From Coptis chinensis (lineage: Eukaryota; Streptophyta; Magnoliopsida; Ranunculales; Ranunculaceae), in NCBI GenBank assembly GCA_015680905.1, contig CM027378.1, positions 85,775,501-85,839,500 on the forward strand: 64,000 nt of DNA, in the 5' to 3' direction. This document shows, in pieces, positions 3,670 to 54,013 of the stretch. Both the position numbers and the translations under genes were made by a program. How positions within the stretch are numbered: the first letter of the stretch is position 1; each line of letters begins with the position of its first letter. The notes beneath the pieces are model-generated. The model was not told the DNA's origin and did no database searches. It saw only the letters and a program-made list of their open reading frames with translations.

Positions 3670-5619
3670 GTAAACTAATCATCAATACTATAATTAATTA
3701 ATCAACAAACAACCTTTGATTACACTTATATACAATATGCATGCACCAAATTCACAAAACAAAAGAGTACAATGTGGTAACCTAATTGGTCGTTTAGATC
3801 AAGCCAAGTAACAAAGCGTCACTAGATCCCATCCTCATTAATTAATGGTCGGTCAAAAAAATCAGATACTAGGTTTTGCCAAAGAAGCAAGTAATAAAGA
3901 AGCTTTTTATTCTTGTTCGCCAGTACTAACTCCATTGTTTTCATTTATGTCAGATCTCCTCGTCATCATTCTATATCTCATGACTCATTACTCCATTACC
4001 ATCCTCATAAATTTCCGTTACTCCATTATTACCTCCCAGAATATTCCATTACATATCATCTATCATCTATTCATGTCCATGGTATTGCCATCTTTTATGC
4101 CAATATATTTTTGGCTAAACATTGCAAGGTGTATTCACTGTATTGCACTATTGCCCAACTTTTATTGATATTATCCATATTTAGATCTTATTACTTGTTC
4201 TTTACTACCAAAAAAACAAAGATGGGTATCCTATTCAGTAACATTTGAAAGTGTTCATGGATATATTTAGTTACAGTTTCCCTTCGCAGGGAAGAACATT
4301 AAATTTCATTGTACAAAAGGCCACAAAATATAGTTAAACATGATGCTTTACCGGTATAATAACCATTAAATGCCAAAGTCACATCATAGTATCATCTAAC
4401 TACTTTAAAGTAACTACTTTAAAGAGAAATGCTCTGTAAACAGTGAAATTTTCCGTTTATACCCCTGACTACGTTTGGTTATTACAATTATTATTAAAAT
4501 GTAGATATGTAATAAAATATGTTATGGAAAGATAAGACTGGTATTTGATCGGTAAAATTTAGACATTTCTCTCTTGATTTAGCACATTATCTTCGGTTTT
4601 ACAAATATTTATAATATTGCCACTGCCCAAAAAACTGGCACACATGGACTCTTCTTTTTGAAATTGAGACATTGTCCTCATTTTTTGCAAATATTTACGT
4701 AATTACCACTGCCCAAAACAACTGCCCACGTGTTAGAAAGCTAGTACATATAATTGCACAATGATAAATAAAAAATTAAAAACTATTATCCCCATCATCA
4801 TCGTCTAATTATTTGCTCCTATTGCAGTTTGGTCCAAGCGCTTCAAGGGGCTTACATAACAGCCACGTGGTGAACAAAATCAAAGTGACAGCCCTACCAA
4901 AAATAACCACATTTATGAGCTCCAAATTTGTCCCTCGTCACACTTAGAAATGAAAAAGAATAGTGGAAAAACTGAAAACAATAAAACCTGATTGAAAGTT
5001 TCAGTCATTTTCACCATAACATACTGAAAAAATAATCAAAAGTTAATTATTTGTAATTATGTATATAAGTTGTGTTCAACATTCTTAGTTTGAACTTATT
5101 TCTAATTGTTATTGGATGTTAAACTCATTTTCGACAAAAATAAAACCAATTTCTTATATTACAATATTTTGAGTATGATATAACCGGAACAAGAAAGAGT
5201 GTATCAAACAATACTACGTTTTAATAGATCAAAGCCTAAGTAGTAGAGGATCAATGTTTTTTGGTTAAAAAATTTCTTGAGGTTATTTACATTTTTACAC
5301 TCATTAGAGAAGAAGATATAGGCAGGAAAGGGGGGTAAAACTGGAAGTTGCAATCGTTGGTATCTTTGGCAAGCTGTCATACTTTACTTGTTAACCACGT
5401 GGCGTGGCCCCTTGGAGCGCTTGGACCCAACTTCGCTGGGAGCAAAAACTCACTCCCCATCACCATCCTCTTTTCTTCTTCTTCTTCATCAACCCAGGAA
5501 GAAATAAAAAAAAAAAAAAAAATAGTCTTTATCTCTTTTTTCACACAACACATTACACACAGAAAACAAGCACATCCTTCTTCTTCATGAAACAAGAAGA
5601 AAGTTATTATTGTTGATTG
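3670..5619. other. Intergenic DNA upstream of the GAUT gene
   Basis: AT-rich, with no convincing coding exon. It contains a diverged tandem duplication (4562-4732) and three CACGTG G-boxes (4727, 4864, 5396). Just before the gene is a CT-rich tract followed by an A16-17 run (5465-5521), typical of a plant 5' leader. The short open frames here show no conserved features. Confidence 0.6.
4727..5401. promoter_or_regulatory. Three G-box (CACGTG) motifs upstream of GAUT
   Basis: CACGTG occurs at 4727-4732, 4864-4869 and 5396-5401. The last is about 220 bp before the GAUT start codon. In plants this palindrome binds bHLH and bZIP factors (PIFs, ABFs). Three copies in under 700 bp of AT-rich DNA is more than chance would suggest, but occupancy and function are inferred only. 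Confidence 0.4.
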
Positions 5620-8600
5620 ATGAGGCAGGGTTTAAAGTGTCAGAGGATATTAATCCTCTCTTTACTTTTTATCTCTGTTTTCACCCCCATCCTTTTTCTT
5701 TCCAAACGTCTCTCCACTTTCACTTCTTCTCTAGGTAACCCTTTTTCCCCCCTTGATTCAATCTCTTTATATTCTATTAATATTATGTTTTCTTGATTCA
5801 TTTATTTTTATGTATTTGTTTCATGAACAGCTCATAAAGAATTTCTTGAAGACTTATCTACCCCTGTAAGTAATCTTATTCAAGTAATTATTTTTATTGA
5901 ATTTTTTGGTAATTTGTTTAGTTATTAAAGATTGTTTTTTGTTGTTGTTTGATTTGATGTAGAAATACAGAACAGATACTTTGAAACTAAACTCGATCCA
6001 ACAGGTTTGCTTTTTGCATTTTTTTTTATTCATTTTGGTGATACGGGGTTTTGTTATTTTATTTTATTTATTTATTTTTAATGTGTAGGAAACAGGAGAA
6101 GGTTTGAAAGAACCACAACTATTTGTGTATAAAGATGAGAAGAGTAATAATAATAATAATAATAATATTCAGTCTATAGTTAGGCATGATGTGAGAGGCA
6201 ATACGGATACAATACATACTAATGGTTGGTGCTTTTGGTACTTTATTTACTTGATTAGTTGTTGTTAGTGATGAGCATTAGTTTAACTAATCACTTGGGG
6301 TTGAACTTTTTATTCTTTAGGAAACAGTCGAGGTGGATCACATTTACACCCAATCAAAGAAAAGGTATGTTTGTTCTTTGCATTTGTCATTTTGTTAATT
6401 GGAGTACTAGGCTGAACGAAGCAAATCATGAAAGCTCTTATGATGAATTTGATATATATACAATGTACTATTGTAACAATGATAATTTTAAGAATGTGGT
6501 ACTGGTTTGGCAAATCGTTGAAAGGGAACGAGAGATGTGTTACTAAGCAACTATTATATATCTCAACAATCAATATTGATTTGAAAACCAAACTTTGTAG
6601 TGCGTTTGAAGTTTGTATTGGGAGATGTGTTTGAAATGGTGAAATCCATGGTGAGTGAGGAGATAATTTTAAGTAAAATTTAAGATTTAAATATCATGAT
6701 GATGAAGTGAGGTATGAAGTAACAACAAGAGAACGATGAATAAGCATATACAGGATAAGTAAGACGTTTGAACACGTTTACATGTAACAAGTGGATTCTA
6801 TTAATTGAAAAGAAGTTACATTCAAGTTTCGCATTCATCGGTTGAAATGGTGGCCCAAGCATATATCCTGAATGTATTTGGCTTGGGCCTAAATAATTAA
6901 AGTTACGAAGTCTGAAAAGAAATTAAGTGCTGGGATTTTTTAAATTGATATTTGATTGCTACAATTTTGAGCGGAGGAGATGGCGTTGTTTAGTTTAGCT
7001 GTCTGCTTACCAACTACTTTGATTTTGGATGCAGGTACATAATCAAACAGTAGCAAAAGTAAGTAATGGGCGCTCTCAGCCCCGGACAGTAAGTGATGAG
7101 AAAGTAAGAGAGATGAAAGATCAGGTGATCAGGGCCAAGGCTTACTTGAATTTTGCGCCTCCAGGCAGCAATTCTCACTTAGTAAAAGAGTTAAGATTGC
7201 GGATAAAAGAGATTGAACGAGCAGTTGGTGAAGCATCCAAGGATTTAGATTTGTCAAGAAGGTATGCTAATGCTTAGTCTAATTGAAAAGATGTTTTCAA
7301 TTGTAAGTAAGTAACCTGAAAATGAGTAGGACAAAAGATAAAATTTTGAAACATCTATCTAAAACCAGAAGATTGTCAGTGCTTTGCAGAAAATGAAATC
7401 CATGGAGGCTGTCCTTTCCAAAGCAGGTCGTATTTACCCTGACTGCTTTTCCATGGCGACTAAACTTCGTGCAATGACCCATAATGCTGAAGAACAGGTC
7501 CAGGCACAGAAAAACCAGGCGAGCTATCTTGTTCAGCTTGCTTCAAGGACTACTCCAAAAGGACTGCACTGCCTATCCATGCGGCTGACTGCAGATTATT
7601 TTGCTCTGCAGCCTGAAGATAGGGTGCTTCCAAACCAACACAGATTGCACAAACCAGATTTCCGTCACTATGCTGTCTTCTCAGACAATAACCTTGCATG
7701 CGCTGTGGTTGTGAACTCTACTATCGCTGCTTCTCGGGTAAAACTTTATCTTTATTATGAACTTTGTTTCAAACTCATTATGTACTTTGTTACTTAGTTT
7801 TCATTTTGCACTTTGGTCTCATGGTTTTTATTACTTGATAGTAGTTGTGTGTCCATTGAAGAAGAAGAGTAATACTAAAAAATGATTATAAAAGATAAAA
7901 ATGTTGGACCTTGACACTTTTGCTAGATCTCTGAACTTGCTTTGAAATAACTAGTTTGCAATTCCCATGTATGTAAGTAGAACCATATGTTGTTGGGACT
8001 GAGACACATCTGTTTTTAGCAGAGAGAGAGAGTCTAATCGTGGTTGATTACTTTGCAGGAGCCAGAAAAAATCATTTTTCATGTGGTGACTGATGCTCTG
8101 AACCTCCCAGCTATATCTATGTGGTTCCTGTTGAATCCTCCTGTACGAGCCACTATTGAGATTAAGAGCATGGATGATTTCGATTGGCTTTATTCCAAGT
8201 ATGGTTCGGCAAGGAAGGTGCAAGTGTCTCGGGATCCCCGATATAATTCACCCCTGAATCATCTCCGTTTCTATCTTCCAGAAATATTCCCTGCACTGAA
8301 TAAGATTGTTCTTCTTGACCATGATGTGGTGGTGCAAAAGGATCTCAAGGGTTTGTGGAGTGTAAACATGAAAGGAAAAGTAAATGGAGCAGTGCAGACT
8401 TGTCGAGAAAGTGACTCATCATTCCAAAGGATGAATAGGCTTATTAACTTTTCAGATCCATTTATTGCAAATTGGTTTGATGTTAAGTCGTGCACATGGG
8501 CATTTGGAATGAACCTGTTTGATCTAAGGGAGTGGAGGCTACAGAATTTGACAGCACTCTACCATCAATACTTGGAATTGGTAAAGGAACTCAAAATCGT

Positions 8601-9369
8601 CTGTTTTTGTATACTAAATATCTACTGTATGCATTATTGTCCCTTATTCATCAAATGCTTGTATACAGTGTAGGTCATTTCTTTGCGTCCTTATGTCGAA
8701 CCGTTTTTTTTACTCTTATGCATTCTTCTGGTATTTATTAAAATTAACATTTATACCATGTCTTGTGTTATCTTAGTCGAGTTTGTAATCCTCTTAGTAT
8801 TTACTTTTTTCAGGATATCCCTATACTGGTTGTACTTGCTGAATGAAATACTGTTCCTTTTAAGATTTCAATTGCATGTTTCAATTTCTATTTTATATCT
8901 GCTGTAGTGCTGTTGGATATGTATTTATTTTAACTTGGGATCTGGATCTAGTCTATGCGTTTGGGGTCTTATCGTGAGCATCAGAGCATGTTGATGTCGT
9001 CTTCTTGTATCATGTTACCGTGTATCACTCTGTCACCGCATACGCTTGCGTATAGGCATTGTGTGCCTAATTTGTGACTGATTGGTTTTGCAGGGAAATA
9101 AGAAGCAGTTGTGGAAAGGCGGAAGCTTGCCCTTGGGTCTAGTTACATTCTACAATCAGACTGTAACTCTAGACCGGAGATGGCACATCCTTGGTCTTGG
9201 CTATGAATCCGGAGTGGGGCGTGGGGAGATTGAACGAGCAGCGGTAATCCACTATGATGGAATTATGAAACCATGGCTAGATATTGGAATTGGGAAGTAC
9301 AAGGGATACTGGAACAGACACGTCAAGTATGACCACCCTTACTTACAACAGTGCAACATCCACGAGTAG
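5620..9369 (+). CDS. GAUT: GAUT-family galacturonosyltransferase (GT8), nine exons
   Basis: Exons read as 5620-5734, 5831-5865, 5963-6004, 6089-6224, 6321-6364, 7035-7261, 7380-7737, 8059-8580 and 9094-9369. All have GT-AG borders and the frame holds throughout: 1755 nt, 584 aa. Residues 10-28 form a signal-anchor, as expected for a type II Golgi protein. Residues 125-319 hold the GAUT stem (RAKAYLNFAPPGSNSH, RLTADYF) leading into the GT8 domain at HYAVFSDN (about 296). LLDHDVVVQ has the metal/UDP-sugar DxD-type site at 406-408, and HYDGIMKPW lies at 546-554. The family transfers galacturonate from UDP-GalA to homogalacturonan in pectin synthesis. The YLQQCNIHE end suggests the GAUT3/5/6 side of the family rather than GAUT1/4, but the exact orthologue is unsure. 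Exon 4 carries an AAT run encoding seven Asn. The short early exons make the first 120 residues the least certain part. Confidence 0.93.
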
Positions 9370-11400: not shown

Positions 11401-12558
11401 AGAAATGCTTAGGGTCTTTTGTAGCAACTGGTGGTGTTACACTATAACATTTATGTAGTGGAGACAAGTAGTTTTGCTGATTTTTCCATTATTGTGATCG
11501 ACTCTATGTTACCATACTTTTTATTAGCATTGTTAGGTGCTATGGTCGTCATATACTATGTGAGTAATGTCTCGCTTATGCACCCTGTCAATACTATCAT
11601 GCTTATGCACGACTAGATGGAGACAATCCTGAATATATATATTTTGGACTTACGTTCTTGGAGCTAAATAGGCGTACATTGCATATGAGTTCATTGTCCC
11701 ATCTCCTTTCTTTCAAGCTATTGTTAGTTTCTGCTGAATTTAATTCATCATTCTATGATACTTAATTTCATTGTGACTTAATTACAAGGGTTGTTTATAA
11801 TGATTTAGCAACTTTCTGAGTTTTGATCTTATGCAACTAATGGTTAATGCAAGGAACTCTACAAAATTCACATTTGCCATTAAGGGCAAGCGGGCTACGA
11901 TGCATATGGTGATTGCATACACTTTTGCCACTCAGTGCAAGCGAGCGTAATCATGCTTTGAACCTATTTTTCCGAATTAGATTGGGGATAAGTAGTCTCC
12001 TTTGCTGCATACATGTGATATACTCTACTTTTTTGTTTTGTTTTATTTTTTTTCCTTTCGTTTTGTTTTGTATTGTACATACAGTTGTCTAATCTGGATC
12101 TTAATGCAGGTCTTTAAGGAATGTCAGGCACCCGATGACTCTAGAAACTCCTTTAAACTCTCTCTGATTAGCTACAAATGTTTTGGAGCTTATGTGAGAA
12201 ACAAAAAAGAAACAAAATCCGGTAATTTTTTTTGGATTTTAATCATCTTCTTGACCCTTTATATATTTTTGCCTACTCTATCTACATGACAGTGTGGTAT
12301 TCATATATGAGCCCTTAGTGCAAAAACTACAAACTGATTTTGCTATATATTTCTATAATAACATGCAGTTGGTTTTGCAAAAGCTTCAGGATTGTGTCGC
12401 GTTGTTACTGTGCATTTTTTGTTCTATAATTGTTGTATTAGGTTTACATTTTGAGGATAGTACCATGGATTAAATGAAGGGCATACAATAGTACTATGTG
12501 AATAATTGGTCTTTCTAAACCAATTATATTTTTATTCATGGTGATCCAATTGGCCCAG
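11401..12558. other. Intergenic DNA left of ClpC fragment 1
   Basis: AT-rich, with no recognised coding exon. A possible exon-like stretch with a CAG border near 12110 gives no recognisable product. Confidence 0.4.
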
Positions 12559-12808
12559 ATCACAAGTTTAATTGACAAAGGTAAAGAGAAAACCAAGACA
12601 AAGAGTGAGGCAAGTGATTCAGGTCCTGTCGTGACAGAAGTTGACATACAACATATTGTGTCTTCAGGGACTGGAATCCCAGTTGACAAAGTATCAAGTG
12701 ATGAGTCTAATAAACTCCTCAAGATGGAAGACACACTCCACCAAAGAATCATTGGTCAGGATGAAGCTGTCAAAGCTATTAGCCGTGCCATCTGCCGAGC
12801 CCGTGTTG
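12559..12808 (+). pseudogene. ClpC chaperone fragment 1 (one exon-like piece)
   Basis: The translation gives [32 protein letters not shown] and ISRAICRAR. This matches the linker before the second AAA+ module of plastid ClpC (Hsp100 chaperone, regulatory partner of the Clp protease). The left edge follows a CAG, as at an acceptor, and the match stops abruptly after the RARV codons. That could be an exon border, so the copy may be DNA-level with introns rather than processed. Trp in the usual SxWTGIP is Gly here. No other ClpC exon was found between 10 and 12.5 kb, so this is a fragment. Confidence 0.85.
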
Positions 12809-13815
12809 TATATGATATCAATGGTAATGCCTGTAACCTTTTATTGATAATATGCTCATTTCCATGGCTTTCAAGGAGGCATTTACTACATTTCAATAAG
12901 AATTCATTTCTTTCCCATTTTCAATTAATAACTTTTGGAATTTTTAGAGAGGCGAGGAAGTAGAACCAATCTTGGATCTTACCAAAACTTGAACAGTTAG
13001 ATCCTAAATCCCAATAGCCTTTTCACCTTTGTGATTGGACAACATTTGATATCTTGAATCTCTAATTGTCAACCAAAGAAATCTTAAGTATATGTACTAA
13101 TAACTGATTCGATCACGATCTCGGTACATATATTGTTCATCGGCCAGTGTATATCTCAAATCTGATTTGTTGCCTCATGTTGAGGTGAGTTATGATCATG
13201 CACTGCTAAGTTCTGTTTAGCTATAATTTGGTATATGTACGAAACTTTACTCCGAAACAAGAATCATAAGATGGTGTTCTTGAGTATGAAGCAAAAGATG
13301 AGAACCGTTTTTCGGCCAATTAATTTAAGCCCATTAATGTTTCCCTCAAAATCTTAAATATGAGCCTGCGAGGTCTTCAAAGAATGTTGGGAGTCTATTT
13401 GGCTATTGAAAAAGGTTGAAGCCCCATATTTTCAGCTTTCAATAGATACACTGAAGAGCCTTTACGTTAGGGAAATATCCCTTAACGATCACAGTTGTCC
13501 TACTCAGATGCAATCGTGGCGTAAGACATGCTTTCGGGGACATTATTTTCTTGTTCCAGAAACTCATAGTTGACAAAACCCTTGGCTTTTATCTCTGTTG
13601 AAAGTAGTGGAACTGAGCAATTAGTTATGTTCTTCCTTAGATCTTCTTCTAACTTGTGTGGACTGTATGATAGGTTGATGCAGTAGATCCAAAGAGTAGG
13701 CACAAAGGAAAGCTTGAGACAGAAAACTTACTATAGTCAAGAGATGTGAACTAGACTTCAATAAGACCAGTCTACATTTATGGCCCTTTGAACTACAACC
13801 CAGTTGAGGAATGGT
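12809..13815. other. Spacer between the two ClpC fragments
   Basis: No coding similarity was recognised. It could be intron sequence of a decayed ClpC copy or unrelated DNA. Confidence 0.4.
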
Positions 13816-14895
13816 TCGTGACAGAAGTTGACATACCGCATATTGTGTCTTCATGGACTGGAATCCCAGTTGACAAAGTATCAAGTGATGAGTCTGATAA
13901 ACTCCTCAAGATGGAAGACACGCTCCACCAAAGAATCATTGGTCAGGATGAAGCTGTCAAAGCTATTAGCCGTGCCATCCGCCGAGCCTGTGTTGGGCTG
14001 AAGAATCCAAATCGGCCTATCACGAGTTTCATATTTTCAGGTCCAATTGGTGTTGGAAAGTCGGAGCTGGCGAAAACGTTGGCTACCTATTACTTTGGTT
14101 CTGAGGAAGCCATGATCCGGCTTGATATGAGTGAGTTTATGGAGAGGCATCTTGCTCTCCTGATGATTAGTTCACCACCGGTTATGTCGGCTACACCGAG
14201 GGTGGTCGACTTTTTGAAGCCGTTCGCCGCCCGACCCTATCTTGTGGTCCTCTTTGACGAGATAGAAGGCTCACCACGATGTCTTTAATATGATGCTTGA
14301 TTCGGAAGATGGGAGGTTGACAAAAATAGCAAGGGACGGACTATTGATTTAAAAATACGCCTCGATAATGACCTCCAATGTTGGTAGTAGTGTAATTGAA
14401 AAAGGAGGCCATCGTATTGGATTCGATCTCGACTATGATGAGAAGGGAAGCAACTACAACCGGATAAAGAGCACAGTTCTTGAGGAATTGAAGCGATTAC
14501 TTTAGACCCGAGTTCCCGAACAGGTTAGGCGAGATGATTGTCTTCCGGTTAGCTTAAGTTGGAAGTCAAGGATATTGCGAGATATAATGTTGAAGGAGGT
14601 ATTTGAGAGGCTAAAGGCCAAGGAAATAGAGCTTCAAAGTTCTGAGAGATTTAGAGACGGTTGTTGATGAAGGATCTGACCGAAGCTATGGAGTAGACCT
14701 CTAAGGAGAGCAATAATGAGGCTTTTAGAGGACAACATGGCTGAGAAGATGCTCTCGGAGATATCAAGGAGGGGATTATGTTATCATGGACGTCGATCTT
14801 CGATGGAAATGTTACTGTGCTTAACGGAGTAGTGGGACTCTTGAATCGTTGCCCCCGGTACACAGTAAAAGGTGCTCTTCCAAGATCCGATGTTC
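13816..14895 (+). pseudogene. ClpC chaperone fragment 2 (second AAA+ module to C-terminus)
   Basis: Homology restarts at the same codons as in fragment 1 ([20 protein letters not shown]) and runs on without an intron. Recognisable parts are Walker A GPIGVGKS (about 14041), [13 protein letters not shown], Walker B VVLFDEIE (about 14244-14267), [48 protein letters not shown] and the C-terminal VTVLNG-type end. It is broken. A pair of compensating frameshifts surrounds the pore-loop GYVGYTEGG region, another shift follows DEIE, and several stops lie further on. In the parent this module hydrolyses ATP to unfold stromal proteins. Lack of introns suggests a processed copy, but this depends on the parent's gene structure, which I cannot see. 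Confidence 0.9.
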
Positions 14896-16860: not shown

Positions 16861-17869
16861 ATGGCAACCAGCACTGCAATCACCCCTACTTCATCATTTG
16901 TAGGCGCTGCCATCGTCCGCAATGCGTCGATTGGGGTCTCTTCGGCACCTGTTCTTGGTAAGGTTTCAACAATACATTGGACAACTGAATTCTTGAAACT
17001 AGCTAGTAAGTTTCAGTTATGATACAAGATTACTAGTTGCGTGACCATGCATATTATACTAGTAACTGTCAATATAAGGTGTATAGTTCTGATAATTTCA
17101 GTAGAAACAAATAGAATCCTTGTCATGCAAACTTACTTATGAAGTTTGATCCGTTGTAAATCTCTCTCACGTACAAATTTTATTTCAATGTATGACAGTA
17201 CGAGTTCACTAAACAGTAAACATATACGAAGAGGGTGTCCAAAATTAACGTGCAATGAGGTTATTAGAAAGATAGTTGCAATATGTGTAATGATTTACTA
17301 TAAAAGGTTTATTGGGAAAAGAGAATTCATGTGGCTGACCAGTGCATAAGGGATGAAGGCAGACCTGATCAATAACTGAGTTCACTCTACAATGGAATTA
17401 TGTAAGTATGTAGGCATAAATAATACCCAACTGGACATAACACAGTTGAGCGTCACTGAAGCTTCATAAAATGGAATTTATGATTGTGCTTGTTTCTGAT
17501 TTTATTTTGGTGCCAAACACTCTCGCTTACATATGGTTTATTCTTTTTCGCAATATGTATTCAGGATTGCCCTCAATGGCTAGGAGGGGACGTGTAAGTT
17601 GTTCAGCAGAAAAGATGCCATCGTCAAGTGAGTCTGGACTTAGGATGGGTGCATCCTTGATCGCAGCAGCAAGTGCTGCAGCGATGTCTAGCCCAGCTTT
17701 GGCTCTGGTGGATGAGAGAATGACCACAGAAGGAACTGGACTTCCCTTCGGCTTGAGCAACAACCTCCTTGGGTGGATCCTATTTGGTGTCTTTGGACTC
17801 ATTTGGACTCTTTACTTCACATACACTTCCACTCTAGAAGAGGATGAGGAGTCGGGATTGTCTCTATAA
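16861..17869 (+). CDS. psbW: Photosystem II reaction centre W protein, chloroplastic
   Basis: Exons 16861-16957 and 17565-17869, with a 607-bp intron and GT-AG borders, encode 133 aa. The first ~50 residues are a Ser/Ala-rich plastid transit peptide. Residues 66-79 ([18 protein letters not shown]) are a hydrophobic thylakoid signal ending in ALA. The mature 54-aa chain starts LVDERM at residue 80, with one membrane span ([18 protein letters not shown]) and an acidic [11 protein letters not shown] tail. This is diagnostic of PsbW, a nuclear-encoded single-span subunit that stabilises PSII dimers and PSII-LHCII supercomplexes. Length and cleavage site fit the family, and the gene appears intact. 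Confidence 0.97.
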
Positions 17870-20387: not shown

Positions 20388-21599
20388 TTATATCATGGCT
20401 ACCATGTTTTGCACAAATAGATGGTCATTACTCTGCATTTCAACTTCATGCCGCAACCGTTCATCTGAAGGTGGTTTCCACTTTGGAAGTTGTACATTAC
20501 GTTCATTCTCAACAATCATGTTGTGAAGTATAATACATGTCTTTATTATACGGGATAGAGCTCCTCTGTCCCACTGACGAGCAGGCCTGCTAACAATTGC
20601 AAATCTAGCCTGTAAAACACTAAAACCACGTTCCACATCTTTACGAGCTGCTTCTTGCGCTTTTGGAAAGTTAGTATCCATGGGAGTAGCAGGAGAGATT
20701 GTTTGAATCAGTGTAGCCCATGGTCGATATATTCCACTAGCAATGTAGTAGCCCATGTTGTAAATATTGTTATTAACTCAATAAACACAAGCTGGAGCTA
20801 TTCCTCTGACTAAATTATCAAATAAATGAGAATTATCTAACACATTAAGATCATTACACGATCCAGCCATTCCAAAGTATGCGTGCCAAAACTATAGCTC
20901 CTTGTCTACAACTGCTTCCAAAGTCACAGTCGCTTTTCTAGCATGGCCCAAATGAGTTCCATGCCACGCAGTTGGACAATTTTTCCATACCCAATGCATA
21001 CAGTCTACACTACCCAACATACCTGACCAACCGCGTTCTTCACCTACTGCAAGCAAGCGTGTTACATCTTCTTCCATTGGGCTTCTCAGGTACTGTTCTT
21101 CAAAATAGTTGACAACTGCATTGTAGAAATGATGAAGTGATTCTCGGGCCGTACTTTCAGCTAGACATCCATAAGCAAGCATCTGTATTGCAGCTGTCCT
21201 TTTTACCAAACCCGAAACCCCAGGCAAACCAAGAGCATCACAAGAAGGCTTAAAATATGGATCAAAATTAGTGACAACTTCCAATATACTGTTAAAAAGT
21301 GATCTTCTCATACGAAACCTATGCCGAAACTTACCTGCTTTATAAGTTGGTCTAGCAGCAAAATAATCAGCCACCAATCGTTCATGCGCACCAACACAAT
21401 TGCGGTTAGTGTATTCTCTACCATCAACAAATCCACCCCATTTTGGTATAGATAAAGCGTTGAAAGCTGGAATCATTGACACCACTACAACTGCGTCACT
21501 TTGCATTTGTTGAACGATTGCGGCATTTTCATCATCGTCGTAAAAAATTAGTTCACTTACTATTTCGCACCAATTGCTATTATGACTACTAGAACCCAT
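20388..21599 (-). pseudogene. PIF/Harbinger DDE transposase, two nonsense codons
   Basis: The minus strand reads from ATG at 21599 to a stop at 20388, one frame of about 400 codons, near the usual transposase length. Catalytic positions are visible: first Asp in GSVDCMHW, second Asp in GSCNDLNVLD, Glu in ARKDVERGFSVLQ. RESLHHFYNAVV and IIKTCIILHNMIVEN are family signatures. The frame is kept throughout but is cut by TAG at 20892-20894 (where the family has Trp in KELWFWHAYFG) and a second stop at about 20776. The helix-turn-helix region near RMRRSLFNSILEVV is intact. Confidence 0.93.
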
Positions 21600-21943
21600 G
21601 ACAAAATATAAAAAGTTTATGACTGATGAGAGGAGATGATGAAATGAAAAAAATATATGGATGCTTCACCTGTGATTCATCTGATATATAGCATAGAAAA
21701 TGGAGGGAAACGATGGGCGCAAAAATGGTTTGGCGCCATAGAAATGGAGGGAAATGATGGATGAGACAACTTTTGCCATTTATATAAAAAAATTGTTTGG
21801 ATGGGACAACTTGTGCCGTGCGAAATTGAAACAAGAAACTCTTGAATTTCGCATTGGTACTTGACTCGTTTTTAACCATTTTCATCCACTAAAAACGCTG
21901 ATGTGTCACAACAAAATTTAGAAATGCATTGATGATGCTCTTA

Positions 21944-44897: not shown

Positions 44898-45153
44898 CAT
44901 TACACCATAAGGGCCATTTTGTAACAGAGCAAAAATTTTATTTGTAACGAATATATCCGTTACTACCTTTCTAACGGACATAACTGTGAGGTTTGTTGGT
45001 ATCCGTTAGTATATTTCAATTGATTTTTCTAATTATTATCAAACAACTTTGGTAAAAATTGTGCTAGTTAGCAAACAACTAAAATAATGACTAGAAGGGT
45101 ATATTCAAAACTAACGAACAACATTAAATTAAATAGAAAGGAATTGTGCCCGA

Positions 45154-45250
45154 TGATTTCCCATTCTCATCTCTCTCTTCAAGCCTCTATCGAACACTTC
45201 CTCAGTCTCCTCTGTCAAACCCTCGTCGACGAAGAAGGAAATAAACCAGG
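45154..45250 (+). pseudogene. Possible first exon of a captured gene
   Basis: ATG at 45154 opens a frame MISHSHLSLQASIEHFLSLL that runs to a GTACGT donor at about 45251. It sits just inside the left sub-terminal repeats of the CACTA and could supply a start for a chimeric transcript. It is not recognised, and may or may not belong with the 14-3-3 piece downstream. Confidence 0.4.
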
Positions 45251-45910
45251 TACGTGTTTTTTCTTTTCTTCTACCCAAACCCCATCTAGCGAATTTCTAC
45301 GGGGGTTTTTTTTTTTTTTTTAATTGTGCTCCATGATCGAACTATTCAAGTTAGTTTTATTTGGTTCACTTGCTGATAAATTTGGGGAAATTAAGTTTTG
45401 TATTGAAATTGTAAGATTGGACTCTAAATTTACGCTTCTCGATCAATTGGGATATTTCGTTGGTTTGGGGTTCTGTTGGCTAATAAACAATCAAAAGAAT
45501 TTTGGTATTAATTAAATAGTTTCTGTTTATCTAAGATCCAGTTTTCTTTATAAACTGTTTATGTTTTTGTTTGATTTCCTAGGTTGTGACTACTACATAG
45601 CTTTTTCTCTCTTCCTTTGACGGACACGCAGGTTATCGAATTTTGGTTACTTATTATTTTTTTTACTAGTTTTTTTTCCAGTGAATTAAATCTTCAGATA
45701 ATGGGTTGGTTTATTCCTTATTCATTTTTGTTTTTGTCAAGTGAAAAGCTTTGCCACATTGAACCTTTACAGTGTTGTTATGGAACATGCACGACATTCT
45801 CAGATTGATGAGAGCAACTCTTTGGAGTCTGGTTATTGTTTGGAGTTGAATTGGATTTTTGTTCAAGGTAGTATGATTGATGGTTTATTTGTTTTGTTTT
45901 TGGGGTTTAG

Positions 45911-46031
45911 GATATTGCGGTTGGTGACCTTCCTCCAACGCATCCTATTCGATTGGGGCTAGCACTGAATTACTGTGTTTTACTATGAGATACTGAATTC
46001 TTCTGAGAAAGCTTGTAGCATGGTGAAACAG
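45911..46031 (+). pseudogene. 14-3-3 protein gene fragment captured by CACTA
   Basis: After a TTTAG acceptor the frame reads [20 protein letters not shown], then (after a 1-base deletion) YYEILNSSEKACSM. This matches the highly conserved central helices of 14-3-3 proteins ([21 protein letters not shown]). 14-3-3 proteins bind phosphoserine clients; the fragment keeps only about 40 residues. The deletion breaks the frame within GVFYYE. The piece ends near a CAG/GGTTGC border resembling a splice site, so it was probably copied as genomic DNA with introns. Confidence 0.85.
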
Positions 46032-46082
46032 GGTTGCTTACTATTTTGGATTCAGGATATTGATTGGTTCTAATATGATGGG

Positions 46083-47887
46083 TGTAGACACCCCATTTTT
46101 GCACCCTAGGCGTAATTTATTCATGATTTTACCTTGAATTAAATATGATCATATAAGGTGATTTGCTTTCTAGAGTCTTCATTTCTACATCAATCTTCTT
46201 TCTTTTCATCTTCTTTTAGTGTCTTTAGACTCTCCTCATCATGTTCTAGCTATGGCTGAAGTTTCATTGCTTTTTGAGTTTTGAGCTAAAAATGACCAAA
46301 ATGCCCCTGTAACCCTTTGGAGCCCAAATCTCGTTTTTTCTACTCTTTCTTTGGATGAGATTATCTCATATTTTAATTCCCCTTAAAAAATCCTTCAAAA
46401 TGAGTACAAGCTTGCCTAGGTTCCTTTTGGATTTCAGAAACCCTAATTTTGCCCTATCCCGTTTCAGCCCGTTGTGCGCACTGTTGAGTGCAACAATTTT
46501 TTGGAGTAAGATTTTGACCCAAGGGTATTTTTAAGAGTTCATAGACTTTCCTAATGGATTAATTAAATTTTTTTGTGAAGAAGAGCTTGCCTAATTTTGA
46601 CCCGGTCAAAGGGAATTTGCAGTGTTCATAAAATGGTCAGAATGGGCCTTTTTGTGGATTTTGGACTTGTACTCGTGGGCTGTGGATCCAGCTCGAGTTG
46701 GACCTTTTCATTAGGTTTTCTAGCCCATTTTCAAGCCTCCAAAAACCTAGAGAATCTTCCTTAATTGTTTGATATGATTTGATCCCTAAAATCAAGAATA
46801 TTCTAGAGAATATGCCATTTTGGAGCCATGTTTGGAAACCCTGGATTATGGGCTCATTGAGGACGTGTGGGGTTTGATTTTTTCCCTAATCCATCTAAAA
46901 GATCCAAAAACCAAGGGTCAAGATCGCACCCTTTATCCCACCTCTTGAATCAAGGGCCAGATTTAGGAGGTGCAACCAGAAAGAGATCAAGCCATTGGAT
47001 TTTTCTTCATCAATACTCAGCCATTGGATCAAAATCTTTACCATATTTGAATCCATGCCCAAAAGCTATAAATATGGGTCTCATTCACCCACAAAAAACA
47101 TCTGGAGCTAGGAATTCGGAGTTAATAATCTGGACCTAGCTATTCAGAGCTAACTAAATGTAGTTTTTTTTTCTTTTTTTTTTTTTTTTTTTTTTTTTCT
47201 TTTCTAGTTCATCATTCTAGAGTAGAATTTCTTTAGTTTAATCTGGAGTTAAAGGTAAAATTTTGACTTCGAGGTTTTTCTAATGAATTTCTTCGTGTTC
47301 TTCATTTTTAGTCTTTTTTTCCCCTTTTTTGATCTTGAGTAGAAGCTTCTTTTCACCAAAAGTTGTTTTTTTCTCAAATTACCTATTTCAATCCAAAAAT
47401 CATAGTTGTCAATTCCAAATCAAGTTTATCATCATCATTTATCAACAATCAATTAAGATCATCAATCAATCAATCTACAATCAAGTATGAGACAACATTC
47501 CAAACAAGGTGACATCTTTCTTTTCTCTTTTATTTTAATTCGTATTGCATATTAGGATTATTTGTTTTTCTTAGTTTTACTATAGCATATAGTCATTTGC
47601 TTTTAAATAATTTAGTGAAGATCATCCAACTTGGTAGATTAATTTTTCAAGCTTTCTTCGTTCACCTATCTTAATACATTACACCTCAATAGAAGTAAGG
47701 CTGGTTTTACTAGGCGAGCGTGGGTGCCTAACACCTTCCCACATCGTACCTTGACTACCGAACCCAATAATCATCTAGTTTCGAGGGCTAGTCCTTCACA
47801 TAGGTTTTACTCAATTTTTCCTTAATAAAACTAGTGGCGACTCTAAAATTAATTACATAGACCTAGGTACACATTTTTGTGCGTACA
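46083..47887 (+). repeat. Solo LTR, 1805 bp, TSD atggg, inside Pack-CACTA (fossil)
   Basis: It starts TGTAGACACCCCATTTTTGC and ends GTGCGTACA, with atggg at 46078-46082 and 47888-47892. It contains a T-rich run at 47165-47200 and a gccgtgggtgcctaacacc-type run near the end, common in plant gypsy LTRs. It is a single LTR with no internal part. Confidence 0.92.
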
Positions 47888-49171
47888 ATGGGTTTTTAGC
47901 ATTTTTATGGATTTGGTATGTCATATGTGGTAACATAATTTGTAGGTAATATAATTAAATGAAGTAATTAGATTGTAATGAAAACATGCTTAGTCAGCTA
48001 ACTAACACAACGTTTAATTCTTTACTTTTTTTCTTTGCTCGGTAATGAATGAAATTAATTCCTTGTTTGACGTCTAGATTTATACATGTCCTTCCACAAA
48101 GGATTTCTTGTGTAACTTAGTTATTGTGGTTAAAACTAAGGTATTGAGACTGAATTCCGCCTTTCACCAGGGATAGGGGGAAAGGGGAAGTGTTATAGCA
48201 CTGTCGCCTTATAAAAATACTTACCAAAAAGTAGAAGGAAAAGAAAAGCTTAATTACCAGCTATTATAATGACTTGGTATTGAATTAGTAAGGAAATGAT
48301 TTTCATTATGTATGTCTTCTTGATGAACTTGCTCAAGAATTATGTTTGGAGATAGTTGGCTCTGCGTTGTTGGAAGTTGGGAAGCTAGTAGTATTGCTCA
48401 GGTGAACGGGTGTTAAGGATCAAGGTTTATGTTTTACAAGAAAATTGATATTTCTATTTGTAAAAGTATGTAATTGTGCCATTTCTTTAGTTGTTTAGTC
48501 AATTAGTAAAGACTAAAGAGAACACTGAGCAATACTAAAAAGAAAAATAAAAATGAATGTCTGTTAATTTTGTCAATTCTTCCTTAGATGCGATTGTTTC
48601 TTTCGTGAAGGAGAACCTTAACGTAACTGATGAAGAGTAGGCCGGACTGCATAGAATTTGCAAGCACATTGGAGTTTGTCTAACTGACTTGTGTGATTTT
48701 CATGTTTTTCTTTTCTTTTAATTCCTTTTTCTTTTTGCTTGTTCACGTATTTGTGGTAAGTTTGTATAATCACGAATGAGTGTGCATTTGTATTACAAGC
48801 AAAGGGACTTGGAATCCATCTCGTACCAATAAAGCTTTCATGGTGCATTTTCTTCAGCAAATGCAGCAGTGAGTCGGATAGAGCAAGAGAAACAAATGTA
48901 CGTTTACTTTCTTCATTATCTTAATTAACTAGAAATGTGAAATTTTGTTATTGAGTTATGGTAATCTTGCTTTTATGTGTCGCTGGTTTCAGTGGCACTG
49001 TAAGGGCGGTTGTTGCCAAGGAAAATATGAAACCAGTTGAAGTGATGACTACCACTGAGGTTTCTTGATTTTGGATATCAAGAAATATTCATCTCCCGGG
49101 AGGTACCATCTTTGAACTTATTTCTTGTTATTTGGCCTTGTTTTTTTGCTTATCTTTTTTCCGCTTTTCCT

Positions 49172-49562
49172 TTTTTTTTTCGCTAAAAGGTAATTGATTC
49201 AAAAAATATGAGGTTACAAGAAAAAAGAATATGAAGTGTGAGACCTGTATAGTATGGGTTTCATCATATGTGAACCCACCTATTACATCAAAAAGCTAGC
49301 TTATGAACCGGAAATAAGTAGTAAAATGGTTTTCTAAGTTCCTCACAAATGGAGGCTTATCATCCCACCATATACATTCTCCATTTTGTAAAGCAGCACC
49401 ATGCCTCGCACAACTATCCGCTCCTAAATTTGTTTCTCTCCATGTAGATGATATATTGATCCATATTGCTTTCTCTCTTTGTTGCTTCCATTTTGATCTT
49501 ACTCTCCAATGCACTTTATCCTGCTGGAATGCATGAACCACTGACATATCTTACAAATTCCA
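49172..49562 (-). mobile_element. 5'-truncated LINE fragment (RNase H end), minus strand
   Basis: The minus strand encodes 83 residues (49547-49296) with WRETNLGADSCARHGAAL and an Trp/Pro end, WWDDKPPF. This is the pattern of the C-terminal RNase H domain of plant LINEs. A T10 run at 49171-49180 would be the poly(A) tail. Near-identical flanks (tttttccgcttttcct at 49156-49171 and tttttctgcttttcct at 49563-49578, 15 of 16) fit a LINE target duplication. It is strongly truncated and not mobile. Confidence 0.75.
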
Positions 49563-49675
49563 TTTTTCTGCTTTTCCTCCCGATAGATAAATGGTATTCA
49601 TTGACATATCTTACAAATTACATAAAGAAAAATTCTTATGGATGATCAGTAAGCAGTTAACCCCCCACCCCCAAA

Positions 49676-50402
49676 GAGTTTATGACTATTTAGTACCATG
49701 AACTTTCGCTTTTTTTCCTAAATGGTACCCGAACTTTATTTCTCGTCTATTCGTACCACGAAGTTTCAATTTAGTACCTCAGTTAATTTTCCATCCAATT
49801 CCGTCCAATTTCACTAACGGCGTTAGCACTATTCACACAACACTATTCCCGTGAACAGTGTTTTTTTTTTATTGTTCACGTGAATTTTCAAAAATCAAAT
49901 TTTGAAAAACAAAAAACACTATTCACGTGAACAATTTTTTTTTGTGAGAATCTTAAAAATAAATTCTTTAATGAAAAATAATAAAAAACACTATTCACCG
50001 TGAACAGTGTTTTTAATATTCACGAGAACAGTTTTTTTTTTTTTAAGATTGATTAAAGATTATTCAAAAAAAAAAAAAAAAAAACTGCTCACGTGAATAG
50101 TGAAAACACTGTTCATGGTGAATAGTGTTTTTTATTATTTTCATTAAAGAATTTGTTTTTTAGATTCTTACAAAAAAAAAAAAAAAAAAAAAAAAACTGT
50201 TCATGCGAATAGCAAAAACACTGTTCACGTAAACAGTGAAAACACTGTTCACATGAATAGTGCTAACGCCGTTAGTGAAATTAGACGGAATTGGATGGAA
50301 AATTAATTGAGGTACTAAATTGAAACAAATTGAAACTTCGTGGTACGAATAGGCGAGAAACAAAGTTCGGATAAGTTCGTGGTACTAAATAGTCATAAAC
50401 TC
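49676..50402. mobile_element. Foldback Mutator-like element, ~727 bp
   Basis: Long inverted arms start gagtttatgactatttagta (49676) and end with the complement tactaaatagtcataaactc (50402). They continue through gtaccacgaagtttcaattt and cactaacggcgttagcacta. The centre is an array of gtgaacagtg/cactattcacg units in both orientations and poly-A/T runs. Flanks acccccaaa (49667-49675) and acccctaaa (50403-50411) differ at one of nine positions, fitting the 9-bp Mutator-type TSD. There is no coding capacity. A transcript would form a long hairpin. Confidence 0.85.
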
Positions 50403-50551
50403 ACCCCTAAAAGTGCAAAGAAATTACATGTAATAGTTACAGTAAATACCCCACTCAAGGAACTATAGCCAAAAGGACCCTATTTGTTTCTCGTTTAGTT
50501 AGACACATTCTTTAATGAAAGTGGGATGATAAGTGGCACCTATGCCACTAT

Positions 50552-51711
50552 TGTCACACCCCAAATTTCCAGACAATATTTAAAACAATTATATTCAATT
50601 ATCTGGAAACCCGGGGTGTGATATTTTGGTATCGGAGCCTAGGTTAGCCTAGAATGAGAAGGTCTAGGTGATCCTCGGATTGTGGTAATGGGTAGTAGGA
50701 GTGTTTTTGTGGTGTTAAGTTTTCTTGTTGTTTTCAAGTTTGTTTGTTCCCGTTTTGGATTTTGGTCTTTCATATTTTCGTATAAAGGAGTGTTTCTCAA
50801 TACGTGATTTTAATTTACGTATGTCCACATGTAAGGTTATACATTATTGTATATGTGTATTCCTTTTAAGGTGTGTATACTTGGGTATACACTTATATCT
50901 AATTTCTAATATTTGTTTATCATGACCTTTTGGTGCAAGTTGTAAATGAAGTGTAATTAACCTTGCTGACATGTTTTAGATGATCACATAAAATTCAGTC
51001 ATTGAGATATGATCAGTTAACTTAGAAGAATTATTACTTGGCATATGTTTGTTTGGTTAATCTACATTCTTTTCTAGAATCTCGGACGAGATTCATTTAA
51101 AAGGTGTATATTATAACAACCCAATTTTTTAAACAACATAAATTAAATTATTTGATTGAAAATAACTATTATATTATGAAGTCTAGCTTATTCTAGAATT
51201 TGTTTAGTTATTGTTGATTTTAAAAAAAATTCATATTTTTTTACTTGAATTGTTTGTTAGAACTTATGTGGGCATTTTATAATCATTTTTGGGCTTGAAA
51301 ACATTGTTAAAATGTATTCATTCATATAGGTATGGACCTTGGGTGTTTTTAGACCCATTAGAGGGCCATATGTTAACTTAAACAGACTTAAAACTGGGAA
51401 TAAAGAAGAGCTGCGAATTTTTTATTCCCAGTTTTAAGTCTGTTTAAGTTAACATATGGGCCTCTAATGGGTCTAAAAACACCCAAAGTCCATACCTATA
51501 TGAATGAGTACATTTTAACAATGTTTTCAAGCCCAAAATGATTATAAAATGCCCACATAAGTTCTAACAAACAATTCAAATAAAAACATTAACTTTTTTA
51601 AAAATCAATAATAGCTAAATAAATTCTAGAATAAGCTAGACTTCATAATATAATAATTATTTTCAATCAAATAATTTAATTTATGTTGTTTAAAAATTGG
51701 GGTTGTTATAA
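50552..51711 (+). mobile_element. Short non-autonomous LTR-derived element (fossil)
   Basis: A short left terminal piece, tgtcacaccccaaatttcc to ggggtgtgata (50552-50623), is followed by a Met-type primer site tggtatcggagc (50627-50638). About 480 bp of interior follow, related to the LARD interior (gttagcctag, ctcggat, gtgtatacttgggtatac). The interior ends with tctcggacgagattc (about 51080) before a palindromic segment starting ttataacaaccc. This is the skeleton of a chromovirus-derived miniature element, with no coding sequence. Its TSD was not found. Confidence 0.6.
51111..51711. repeat. Near-perfect 601-bp palindrome (arms ~292 bp)
   Basis: Arm 1 (51111-51404) begins ttataacaacccaatttttt. 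Arm 2 (51421-51711) is its reverse complement, ending ggggttgttataa. Only scattered differences and a spacer of about 16 bp (agaagagctgcgaat) separate them. The outer ends look like LTR ends (tataacaaccc and ggttgttata), so two LTR halves may be fused head to head. Confidence 0.95.
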
Positions 51712-51841
51712 CTATGCTGATCCATACTGTCCTGTTTAATTTAAAAGGGTCAGTTAAGCTCGTGGCATATGCAATCTTTATACCAAGCAAACAAAAATTG
51801 TAATCTTTATACATCTAACTTTGATGATGACTTTGTTTGAC

Positions 51842-52175
51842 GTGAAGACATTTGGATGGACACCTCCGGAAGCTAAGTTGCATATGGTATCTGATTACTT
51901 CAGTGAATCTGAGGTGGGTCTTCATTCCTGACTGGAAATTTCTCTCTTTTCTACTTGTTAAGCTATAATTTTTCCCTGTTTTTTTAAGCTATATTAGTTC
52001 TATCAATCAAAGAAAAACAAAAATTATAGTTACTTTTTTCTGGTTGACCTTGTTTCTCGTCTGACATTTTTCTTGTTGGAATCGCAGTGGAAGGTTATTG
52101 TAGAGGTGCTTGGATCAAACCCAAGACATATCTCCGAGATTTACACACTGAAGCAAAGTAGCTACTACGTCCAGT
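51842..52175 (+). pseudogene. Two clean exons of an unidentified host gene inside Pack-CACTA
   Basis: Exon-like stretch 51842-51916 reads DVKTFGWTPPEAKLHMVSDY and on to SESE, then GTGGGT donor. After an intron with CAG acceptor, 52088-52174 reads WKVIVEVLGSNPRHISEIYT and on to SYYVQ, then a GTAAG-like donor. The pair is free of stops and in frame. It recalls plant P-loop ATPase-type proteins (SEWKVI.E.LG.NPRHL.E.Y.L), but I am not sure of the family. The clean state suggests capture was recent or the donor gene is close by. Confidence 0.6.
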
Positions 52176-52759
52176 AAGCACCAATCTTATTTTTATCTTA
52201 TATCAATTTCTATGAGTTTATTTTTTCTTCAATGTGTAATTATCCGAGCGGCCAATTTTTAAGTTGCATTAAAAAAGTATGATGGGTTGAGCTGCTCCTT
52301 TTTAATGGTGCATAGCTATATAAAGATATCCCTATATCTATTGATCCATGATAAAATTCTTAGGCACAGGCTGTGTTCACTTTAGTATCTCCCTCTTTTA
52401 TTAATCTGTTGCTCAGGGTTGCACATGTTTTGTACGTTCGAGTGTGTATCCTGGGTCATATATGAAGGGGTCAGTCCTCCAAATCATTAGTTCTAGGGGT
52501 ATTGAAAAAAAAAGGTTTATATTTGGGTTTCTCACTCCTATCGTATCTGTCCATAAAGATCTAAATATTGGAAAGTCGAACTTTGAGGTGATGTTATCAG
52601 GTCTTGTATGAAACCATTTCTTCTCTGACTGATTGGTCGATTGATTTCTGTATATCATACTTTTTATCGTGCGTTAGACTCGGTGCTTAAACTTTGATAC
52701 TTTCTTCCTGTCTCATTAGCATAAATCATTTTCAATTGACCCTTGGTCTTCTTGGTCTT

Positions 52760-53040
52760 CTGAAGATGGCCATCTGCCCCCTGAGCCACGTCAGTACAAT
52801 CCAACAAATATAATGGGACAGGAATTCTTGGGCAAGTAGGTCAGGACGTTGATTTCTAGCGTTATCGCTGTTTACTTGTTTTTTTCTTATTTTTGAAGAG
52901 ATTCTGCACCTAATGCATTTAGAGATGCAGGTTTACTAGGAATGCGAGTATGGTGGCTTCAGGTGTGGCAAGGAACATGCAACAAGTGGGGAAATATGTC
53001 AAAGACAATCTTGATGATGCACTATACCCATACTGAAGAC
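52760..53040 (+). pseudogene. Captured piece of a third host gene
   Basis: 52760-52840 reads WSSEDGHLPPEPRQYNPTNI to MGQEFLGK and then a TAG that may be the edge of an exon. After an intron-like stretch, 52933-53030 reads FTRNASMVASGVARNMQQVG and KYVKDNLDDALYPY, then a stop where Arg is likely. The SGVARNMQQVG..VKD.LDD pattern looks like the end of a small conserved plant protein I cannot name. Confidence 0.5.
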
Positions 53041-54013
53041 AACCCAAATAGCATGTAACAAGTGTGTCATCTCATTTTTCGTTAATTTGTAGCAACAATG
53101 GTGTTCTTTTGTCCATTTTTTCTTTGTAATAATGCTCTAGCACTTTGCTTAATTTCCTCCATCTAAGTTAAGAAATAAATGAGATGCATGAAATCGCCTT
53201 GTTTTCAAGCTTTAACTTTTATCTTGTTTTCAAGCTACTAACGAGATGCAGGTTTGCTGATGCTTGAGGATGAGGTTTCCCTCATTGTTTTAGGAACAAA
53301 ATGAAAAACTGATAATGCAAATTGTAATTGGGGTTTTTGCTTCTAGTGATTTTTGGTATGAGATATTAAGGATGAATATGGTAGAACAGACACCATCATG
53401 ATACATTTCAGTCTGGTTAGTGTTCAGGTGTTAGGCATTTCCGAGAATAAATCAAAGACACTCGTATGTTCTTATTTGGTCTTATGAATTATATTTTGTT
53501 AATTTGGCTTCCTTCATTTTTGTTTGCAAGCTTTCAATTTTGCTAGATTGGAATAAGTCTTGTTTCCAACCTTTTTTTTTCCTGTGTTGAAAAGAACCTT
53601 TTTTGTTATTCATTTGTTGATTAAGTTTGTAGAATGTGATATTTATATCATATTTGCTAGAATTAGATGTGAATGGTGGACATTATTTGACCCAGGATTT
53701 TTTTTTAGTGGCTACAGTTTACTAACGGATATTTCCGTTACAAACAATAGTTAGTAAATAGCACATCCAGTACTAACGGATATATCCATTAGAAATGACA
53801 AATTTAATCAGGCTATCAACAGTTGGCTATCTGTGACAAAGAATTTTAGTAACGGATATAACCGTTACTAAAATTATTATCAGTAACGGTTATATCCATT
53901 ACTAAATTTGGCCTAAGTGAGAGTGACGCCCCAAAACTAACGGATATAACTGTTAGTAAAAATATAAGTAACATATACAACCGTTAGTAAATGCCTTTTC
54001 TGGTGTAGTGTAG

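Follow-up and report, generated by a model that had tools for sequence, protein, structure and literature searches.

The window analyzed here, a stretch of 64,000 nucleotides of Coptis chinensis contig CM027378.1 (hereafter C2; C2:85775501–85839500), contains between positions 44898 and 54010 a CACTA-type element of about 9.1 kb, which encloses fragments derived from three or more host genes with their introns kept. As listed in Table 1, these pieces lie between a 5′ and a 3′ CACTA module and are interrupted by further insertions. The sources, a sister copy and relatives of the element were searched for in the whole genome (935.6 Mb, 116 contigs), whose gene content, judging by a PsbW match, is that of a plant.

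Structure, insertion site and sister copy of the element

The borders of the element read tag/CATTACACCA...TGGTGTAGTG/tag, and both the CACTA ends and the perfect 3-bp target site duplication (TSD) were found exactly where the first-pass annotation had placed them. The 3′ terminus, when read inwards, is CACTACACCAGAAAAGG, i.e., a CACTA-type terminal inverted repeat. At the 5′ terminus the window copy carries CATTACACCATAAGGG, while its sister and other relatives have CACTACACCATAAGGG, indicating that this end of the window copy has mutated from CACTA. The sub-terminal palindrome arrays that had been reported were confirmed by a motif scan: TAACGGATATAACCGTTA, with up to 3 mismatches allowed, gave 14 matches on both strands of the window, all of them in 44945–44989 or 53723–53986, whereas 100 shuffled sequences averaged 0.03. 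Such repeated sub-terminal motifs are a mark of the CACTA superfamily. The CT-rich exon-like stretch of the 5′ module ends in a site resembling a splice donor, AACCAG/GTACGT, at 45249/45250, and the GT after this motif is kept in 20 of 22 loci, which represent a collection and not a census.

Table 1. Features of the Pack-CACTA element and its borders (positions in the window).
Feature	Start	End	Strand	Evidence
TSD tag, left	44895	44897	.	Ends read; joined-flank matches
CACTA 5′ module: terminal repeat CATTACACCATAAGGG, palindromes 44945–44989, CT-rich exon-like stretch, intron start	44898	45831	+	Repeated in genome
14-3-3 piece, first part; exon 45911–46031	45829	46082	+	Pfam, DNA match, junction
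Solo LTR in 14-3-3 intron, TSD ATGGG (46078–46082/47888–47892), TG...CA ends	46083	47887	+	Absent from sister and 14-3-3 gene
14-3-3 piece, second part; intron of parent gene	47888	48642	+	L068 match 47890–48642; junction
S3, common to another CACTA subfamily (L063, L064) and partly to C8/C6b elements	48639	48889	+	Genome matches, junctions
S4, first part; exon-like 48993–49059	48884	49171	+	Genome matches
Later insertion resembling a retroposon, with a terminal T-run on one side and the imperfect repeat TTTTCYGCTTTTCCT flanking it	49172	49562	.	Absent from sister, L065, L066
S4, continued; first bases are flanking repeat of the retroposon-like insertion	49563	49675	+	Sister, locus matches
Later insertion, MITE-like, long inverted repeats	49676	50402	.	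Inverted-repeat arms; absent from sister
S4, continued	50403	50551	+	Sister, locus matches
Later insertion, 1.16 kb, ACTAT on both sides, internal hairpin	50552	51710	.	Absent from sister
S4, continued; second-gene exons 51848–51913, 52088–52173	51711	52683	+	Best source L066, C9:26.117 Mb
S5: two last exons (52720–52835, 52931–53051) of third gene	52681	53202	+	Best source L067, C6:42.97 Mb
CACTA 3′ module: 68-bp stretch 53258–53325, palindrome array 53723–53986, terminal repeat TGGTGTAGTG	53203	54010	+	Genome matches, motif scan
TSD tag, right	54011	54013	.	Ends read; joined-flank matches

When the flanks of the element were joined with a single tag, the match ran across the join in all 40 places scored (of 1296 candidates), with 87–92% identity. 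Frames downstream of the element match RNase H (above the cut-off) and reverse transcriptase (25.6 bits vs. a cut-off of 29.6, i.e., below it). Together, these results indicate that the element is inserted in a common multi-copy retrotransposon and not in a gene. We take this host retrotransposon to be of the Ty3/gypsy type.

A sister copy of 4706 bp was identified on the minus strand of C6 (C6:44092198–44096903), with both ends and a TSD of its own (cat/cat). It aligns with the window element end to end and contains all five segments in the same order. Once the four insertions specific to the window copy had been removed, the copies aligned at 4674 sites with 95.6% identity (K2P 0.0456, 374 gap columns). 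At substitution rates of 6.5 × 10⁻⁹ to 1.3 × 10⁻⁸ per site per year, which are not species-specific, the copies would have separated about 1.8–3.5 million years ago. Of the 9.1 kb, about 4.1 kb is accounted for by the four insertions that the sister lacks, so that the original element had approximately 5 kb. Since the gene pieces recur in unchanged order in a sister with a TSD of its own, they have travelled as one unit, and what was captured is mobile together with the element.

It could be argued that the CACTA ends merely enclose a resident gene or separate later insertions, especially as four real later insertions are present in the element. Yet, the first-pass annotation had itself named sister copies lacking the gene pieces, or exons belonging to a resident gene, as findings that would speak against capture, and the data point the other way on both: the C6 sister carries the pieces between its own ends and TSD, and the joined flanks correspond to a multi-copy stretch next to retrotransposon frames. 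Both an interrupted resident gene and gene pieces as later insertions are ruled out by the sister and the empty site, which leaves this reading with next to no probability. The region 44898–54010 is a non-autonomous multi-gene Pack-CACTA, a known kind of element.

Likely sources of the captured segments

A 23-residue query from the 14-3-3 piece matched Pfam family PF00244 (E 2.4 × 10⁻⁵); its score of 24.4 bits does not reach the gathering score of the family (33.2). At the DNA level, the segment 45829–48642 without the LTR matches L068, a 14-3-3 gene at C2:97962046–97964594, with three exon matches that are stop-free. The 14-3-3 fragment is thus real, and judged by this match L068 can be considered its firm source. 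The captured exon corresponds to about 42 residues of the protein. In the window copy it bears a 2-bp deletion and has lost its donor GT, whereas the same exon is intact in the sister.

The S3 segment matches two loci, L063 and L064, at 95–96%. These are two copies of an element of another CACTA subfamily, 97% alike over 3.5 kb and with 5′ ends CACTACACCA. More copies of S3 are present in the genome at 90–93%, and a Pfam search gave no name for it. Other genomic copies of the exon-like stretch 48993–49059 were detected at about 86–91%. With several similar copies of each present, any of these may stand closest to the primary source of S3 or of this exon.

For the second gene, 49065–52683 matches L066 (C9:26.117 Mb) and 48884–52723 matches L065 (C2:97.418 Mb); the S4 exons were located at four places, namely the window, the sister, L065 and L066. 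We consider L066 the best candidate for the S4 gene, in part because of a further exon-like frame located downstream in it. This frame occurs nowhere else; since the query for that frame was taken from L066 itself, the search shows only its absence elsewhere. L065 could be ruled out as a plain S4 source, as it already includes the first 43 bp of S5 and so has the S4/S5 junction in common with the element. In the 14.5 kb read around L065, neither a family end (1 mismatch allowed) nor a palindrome (3 mismatches allowed) was found. Having the junction but no CACTA end, L065 is not explained by direct capture into a CACTA element. When the two loci L065 and L066 were compared, 0 differences were counted in 151 exon sites vs. 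48 in 1140 other sites, suggesting constraint on at least one of them.

The best candidate source of the third gene is L067 (C6:42.97 Mb), which matches 52681–53202 and has an unbroken last exon. Both S5 exons are present in the window and in L067, only the first in the sister, and only the second at C2:109.69. In the window copy this second exon is interrupted by an early TGA, and in the sister it has lost 40 bp. No Pfam family was assigned to the second or third gene pieces at E ≤ 1. A comparison of the second gene with PDB sequences returned nothing below E 0.41, with weak matches to MBD4 only (best E 0.41).

The proposal of at least three intron-bearing gene pieces thus holds, the second and third pieces matching other loci with introns, and the search for donors and a sister that had been suggested was productive: sources could be assigned to the captured host gene fragments, firmly in the case of L068 and as best candidates in those of L066 and L067. 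The captured segments are wider than the exons that the first-pass annotation had named, include the additional exon-like stretch 48993–49059 and are interrupted by the later insertions.

Exchange of the cassette and joining of the pieces

The 14-3-3 piece had been annotated as a capture of this element. It is indeed present, but it is not private to the window copy: a search with 45140–46084, in which 40 of 159 candidates were scored, revealed at least 10 copies beside the gene, with about 88–100% DNA identity to the window piece. The ten copies, i.e., the window, the sister, C8:20.43, C6:14.27 and six loci designated group Z, belong to three element architectures. The group-Z loci are alike over approximately 3.4 kb, one of them (L049) being interrupted. 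One member, C7:66.82 Mb, proved on complete reading to be a CACTA element of 4297 bp with TSD cta/cta and the same CACTA/14-3-3 junction as in the window; its 5′ end is only 72–77% like the window type over the first 150–200 bp. We thus rejected the possibility that group Z represents 14-3-3 paralogues, the other five loci being judged by their similarity to C7:66.82. The elements at C8:20.43 and C6:14.27, delimited without a 3′ end or TSD, combine the 14-3-3 piece with a portion of S3; both bear the same internal deletion and are of a different type in their 3′ half.

The junction common to such different elements shows that the CACTA+14-3-3 cassette has passed between transposon lineages. 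The boundary between the 5′ module and the 14-3-3 piece lies at 45829–45831, and the CACTA part of this join (45713–45828) was found also in elements without 14-3-3 in the stretch read. Hence, the join most likely arose in an element of the window type and the cassette would have entered the other type afterwards. Trees of the short segments were weakly resolved. In relatives designated group Y, a PRP38 exon stands in sense orientation in place of 14-3-3 (4 of 4 loci). Perhaps these elements form a shared exon-trap family, with a constant 5′ module and splice donor, swappable sense exons and finished cassettes traded as units between CACTA subfamilies instead of arising by a fresh capture in each case, a proposal that we put forward tentatively.

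Short sequences are shared by the neighboring pieces at all four joins measured: CTG (3 bp) at CACTA/14-3-3, AGGC (4 bp) at 14-3-3/S3, CAAGAG (6 bp) at S3/S4 and CGG (3 bp) at S4/S5. Two further joins lie near 49065 and 53202. The chance of an overlap of at least 3 bp at all four is approximately 2.4 × 10⁻⁵, given the base composition of the element and assuming independent joins. In a study on animal Pack-TIR elements, microhomology at capture breakpoints was read as a sign of template switching (PMC8277862). The pieces here may likewise have been joined when breaks in CACTA copies were repaired, through template switches between short stretches of common sequence.

Another route was proposed for Arabidopsis Pack-CACTA and also for other Pack-TYPE elements (PMC8903248, PMC13317346): two neighboring CACTA copies lose their facing ends, and the outer ends mobilize the DNA in between. 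Shared 5′ and 3′ modules with differing centers, as found here, would be expected also from such hybrid elements. Against this, no palindrome was found at L066, L067 and L068 (4.2, 4.5 and 4.0 kb read, respectively), and a loose end scan (2 mismatches) of the same loci yielded only scattered hits lacking the bases that come next in the ends of this family, although past excision could explain the absence of a footprint. The short shared sequence at each of the four joins likewise counts against the tandem-insertion route, which we regard as rather unlikely.

With template switching as the preferred route, a CACTA transposase acting in trans would have moved the finished product. In the window copy, four other elements inserted afterwards and some exons decayed, so that today it is most likely passive cargo. 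Taken together, the data make it very probable that the element is a Pack-CACTA assembled as a mosaic of several loci and moved as a finished unit, with a cassette exchanged between lineages, and that it is now passive cargo. Because a single genome offers the likely sources, the sister, partial relatives and junctions for reading, it becomes possible to test in which order and by which mechanism the pieces were joined. The results also call for caution, as a gene fragment in a Pack element may derive from another transposon and not directly from a gene.

Transposase, coding potential and comparison with known elements

No transposase had been seen in the element, and our scan agrees with this, as expected for a Pack-CACTA: 11 of the 23 stop-to-stop ORFs of at least 60 aa were scanned against Pfam and gave no match at E ≤ 0.1, and 7 of the other 12 are located in the solo LTR. 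The genome is rich in Transposase_21. Among the candidates scored (150 of 2715 for transposase, 40 of 239 for the 5′ end and 40 of 564 for the 3′ end), none proved to be an autonomous partner with these ends. The stretch 53258–53325 of the 3′ module recurs in L072, where it lies upstream of a Transposase_21 frame. Over the 9.9 kb surrounding this transposase, L072 has only these 68 bp of element sequence in common with the window, plus T-runs; its apparent 5′ end, CACTACAAGAAA, is unsupported by a 3′ end or TSD. A 5′ relative at C6:74.08 Mb (L034 and L071) contains no ORF longer than 114 aa and has no matching TSD at a 3′-like end 4.4 kb away.

The clean exons of the second gene had led to the suggestion that the element is more than a dead relic. 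The S4 exons are open in the window, with 2 differences in 152 sites when compared with L066 and 1 in 151 when compared with L065. The window's own branch (0.016–0.021) predicts about 2–3 differences without selection in these exons, vs. the 1–2 observed. For the sister, the corresponding count against L066 is 6 of 152 S4-exon sites, and window and sister differ from each other at 6 of 152 S4-exon sites and 39 of 1153 sites elsewhere. The divergence of the S4 exons thus fits neutrality. With these neutral-like exons, the 2-bp deletion and lost GT in the 14-3-3 exon, and the early TGA in the third gene, the suggestion could not be upheld.

Expression of a chimeric protein under selection might be envisaged from the exon-like 5′ stretch with its conserved GT, and from the fact that all exons of clear direction (14-3-3, 48993–49059, second gene, third gene and the PRP38 exon of the relatives) are in sense to the 5′ end. 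However, among ATG frames over ordered combinations of seven predicted exons none exceeded 106 aa. Furthermore, the 14-3-3 exon is frameshifted and without its donor, S5 is broken by a stop in the window and by the deletion in the sister, and exons and remainder diverge alike between the two copies. We therefore consider such a protein very improbable. Small RNAs from the repeated 14-3-3 cassette might in turn act on the resident 14-3-3 gene, given the number of cassette copies and their identity to the window piece. The captured exon is only some 42 residues long and stands in sense orientation wherever the 5′ end of the element was read, which makes this effect unlikely.

Multi-gene Pack-CACTAs are already known, and several known systems resemble the element. 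Tgm-Express1 of soybean (PMC1947982) is likewise a non-autonomous CACTA element with intron-exon pieces of unrelated host genes, five in that case, and at 5.7 kb is similar in size to the sister reported here (4.7 kb). It resides in an intron of a gene, and splicing brings its captured exons into transcripts, an arrangement that the 5′ splice-donor-like site and sense exons of our element recall, whereas the present element lies in a retrotransposon and has some broken exons. Chenopodium CACTA elements (PMC8978399) also contain captured gene fragments, which in the cases described are placed upstream of a transposase domain, in contrast to the element described here, where no transposase was found in the ORFs scanned. 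Breakpoint microhomology occurs as well in Pack-TIR elements of animal hosts (PMC8277862), at one or more breakpoints in 67.6% of 190 cases and with a median overlap of 2 bp vs. 3–6 bp at the four joins here. The Pack-CACTA/Pack-TYPE elements of Arabidopsis, rice and maize (PMC8903248) share with ours the CACTA ends, the 3-bp TSD and coding DNA from multiple loci; our element differs in that no tandem-insertion footprint was seen at its sources and its cassette is common to different architectures.

Captures and rearrangements among relatives of the Pack-CACTA

A PRP38 exon is present in sense orientation in four relatives of the window Pack-CACTA (L044, L038, L046 and L050), which have the same 5′ module as that element, i.e., the CACTA 5′ end followed by an exon-like stretch with a splice-donor-like site. 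PRP38 is a second gene capture within the family. At L033/L040 (C6:14.274-14.276 Mb) this module is partly duplicated in tandem. L033 also carries a 14-3-3 piece and part of the captured segment S3, and its S3 piece ends (minus strand, at 2815) in the same CACTACACCATATAGAAGC as that of another relative, L032 (at 2812). As this string resembles a CACTA end, it may mark a nested insertion, or else the likeness may be due to chance.

The junction between captured segments S4 and S5 is present at a further locus (L065, L075 and L076; C2:97.412-97.427 Mb), although no CACTA end was found within the 14.5 kb of sequence that was read there.

Other open frames in the window

Open frames matching Pfam families were also observed elsewhere in the window. 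The two frames of the ClpC-like pair are alike and have an 18-residue string in common; the Pfam scan gave no match for the first. The pair looks like a duplicated portion of one gene, presumably of ClpC type. The PsbW match is strong. The Plant_tran transposase match, presumably of PIF/Harbinger type, lies in the listed frame; a neighbouring frame is at 20388-20777.

Open frames in the window and their Pfam matches
Feature	Window position	Strand	Pfam match	E-value
Glycosyltransferase family 8 frame (putative)	8038-8673		PF01501	1.2e-39
ClpC-like frame pair	12502-14288		AAA_2, PF07724 (second frame)	5.2e-17
PsbW frame	17450-17869		PF07123	9.8e-51
Plant_tran transposase frame	20892-21665	minus	PF04827	3.3e-23
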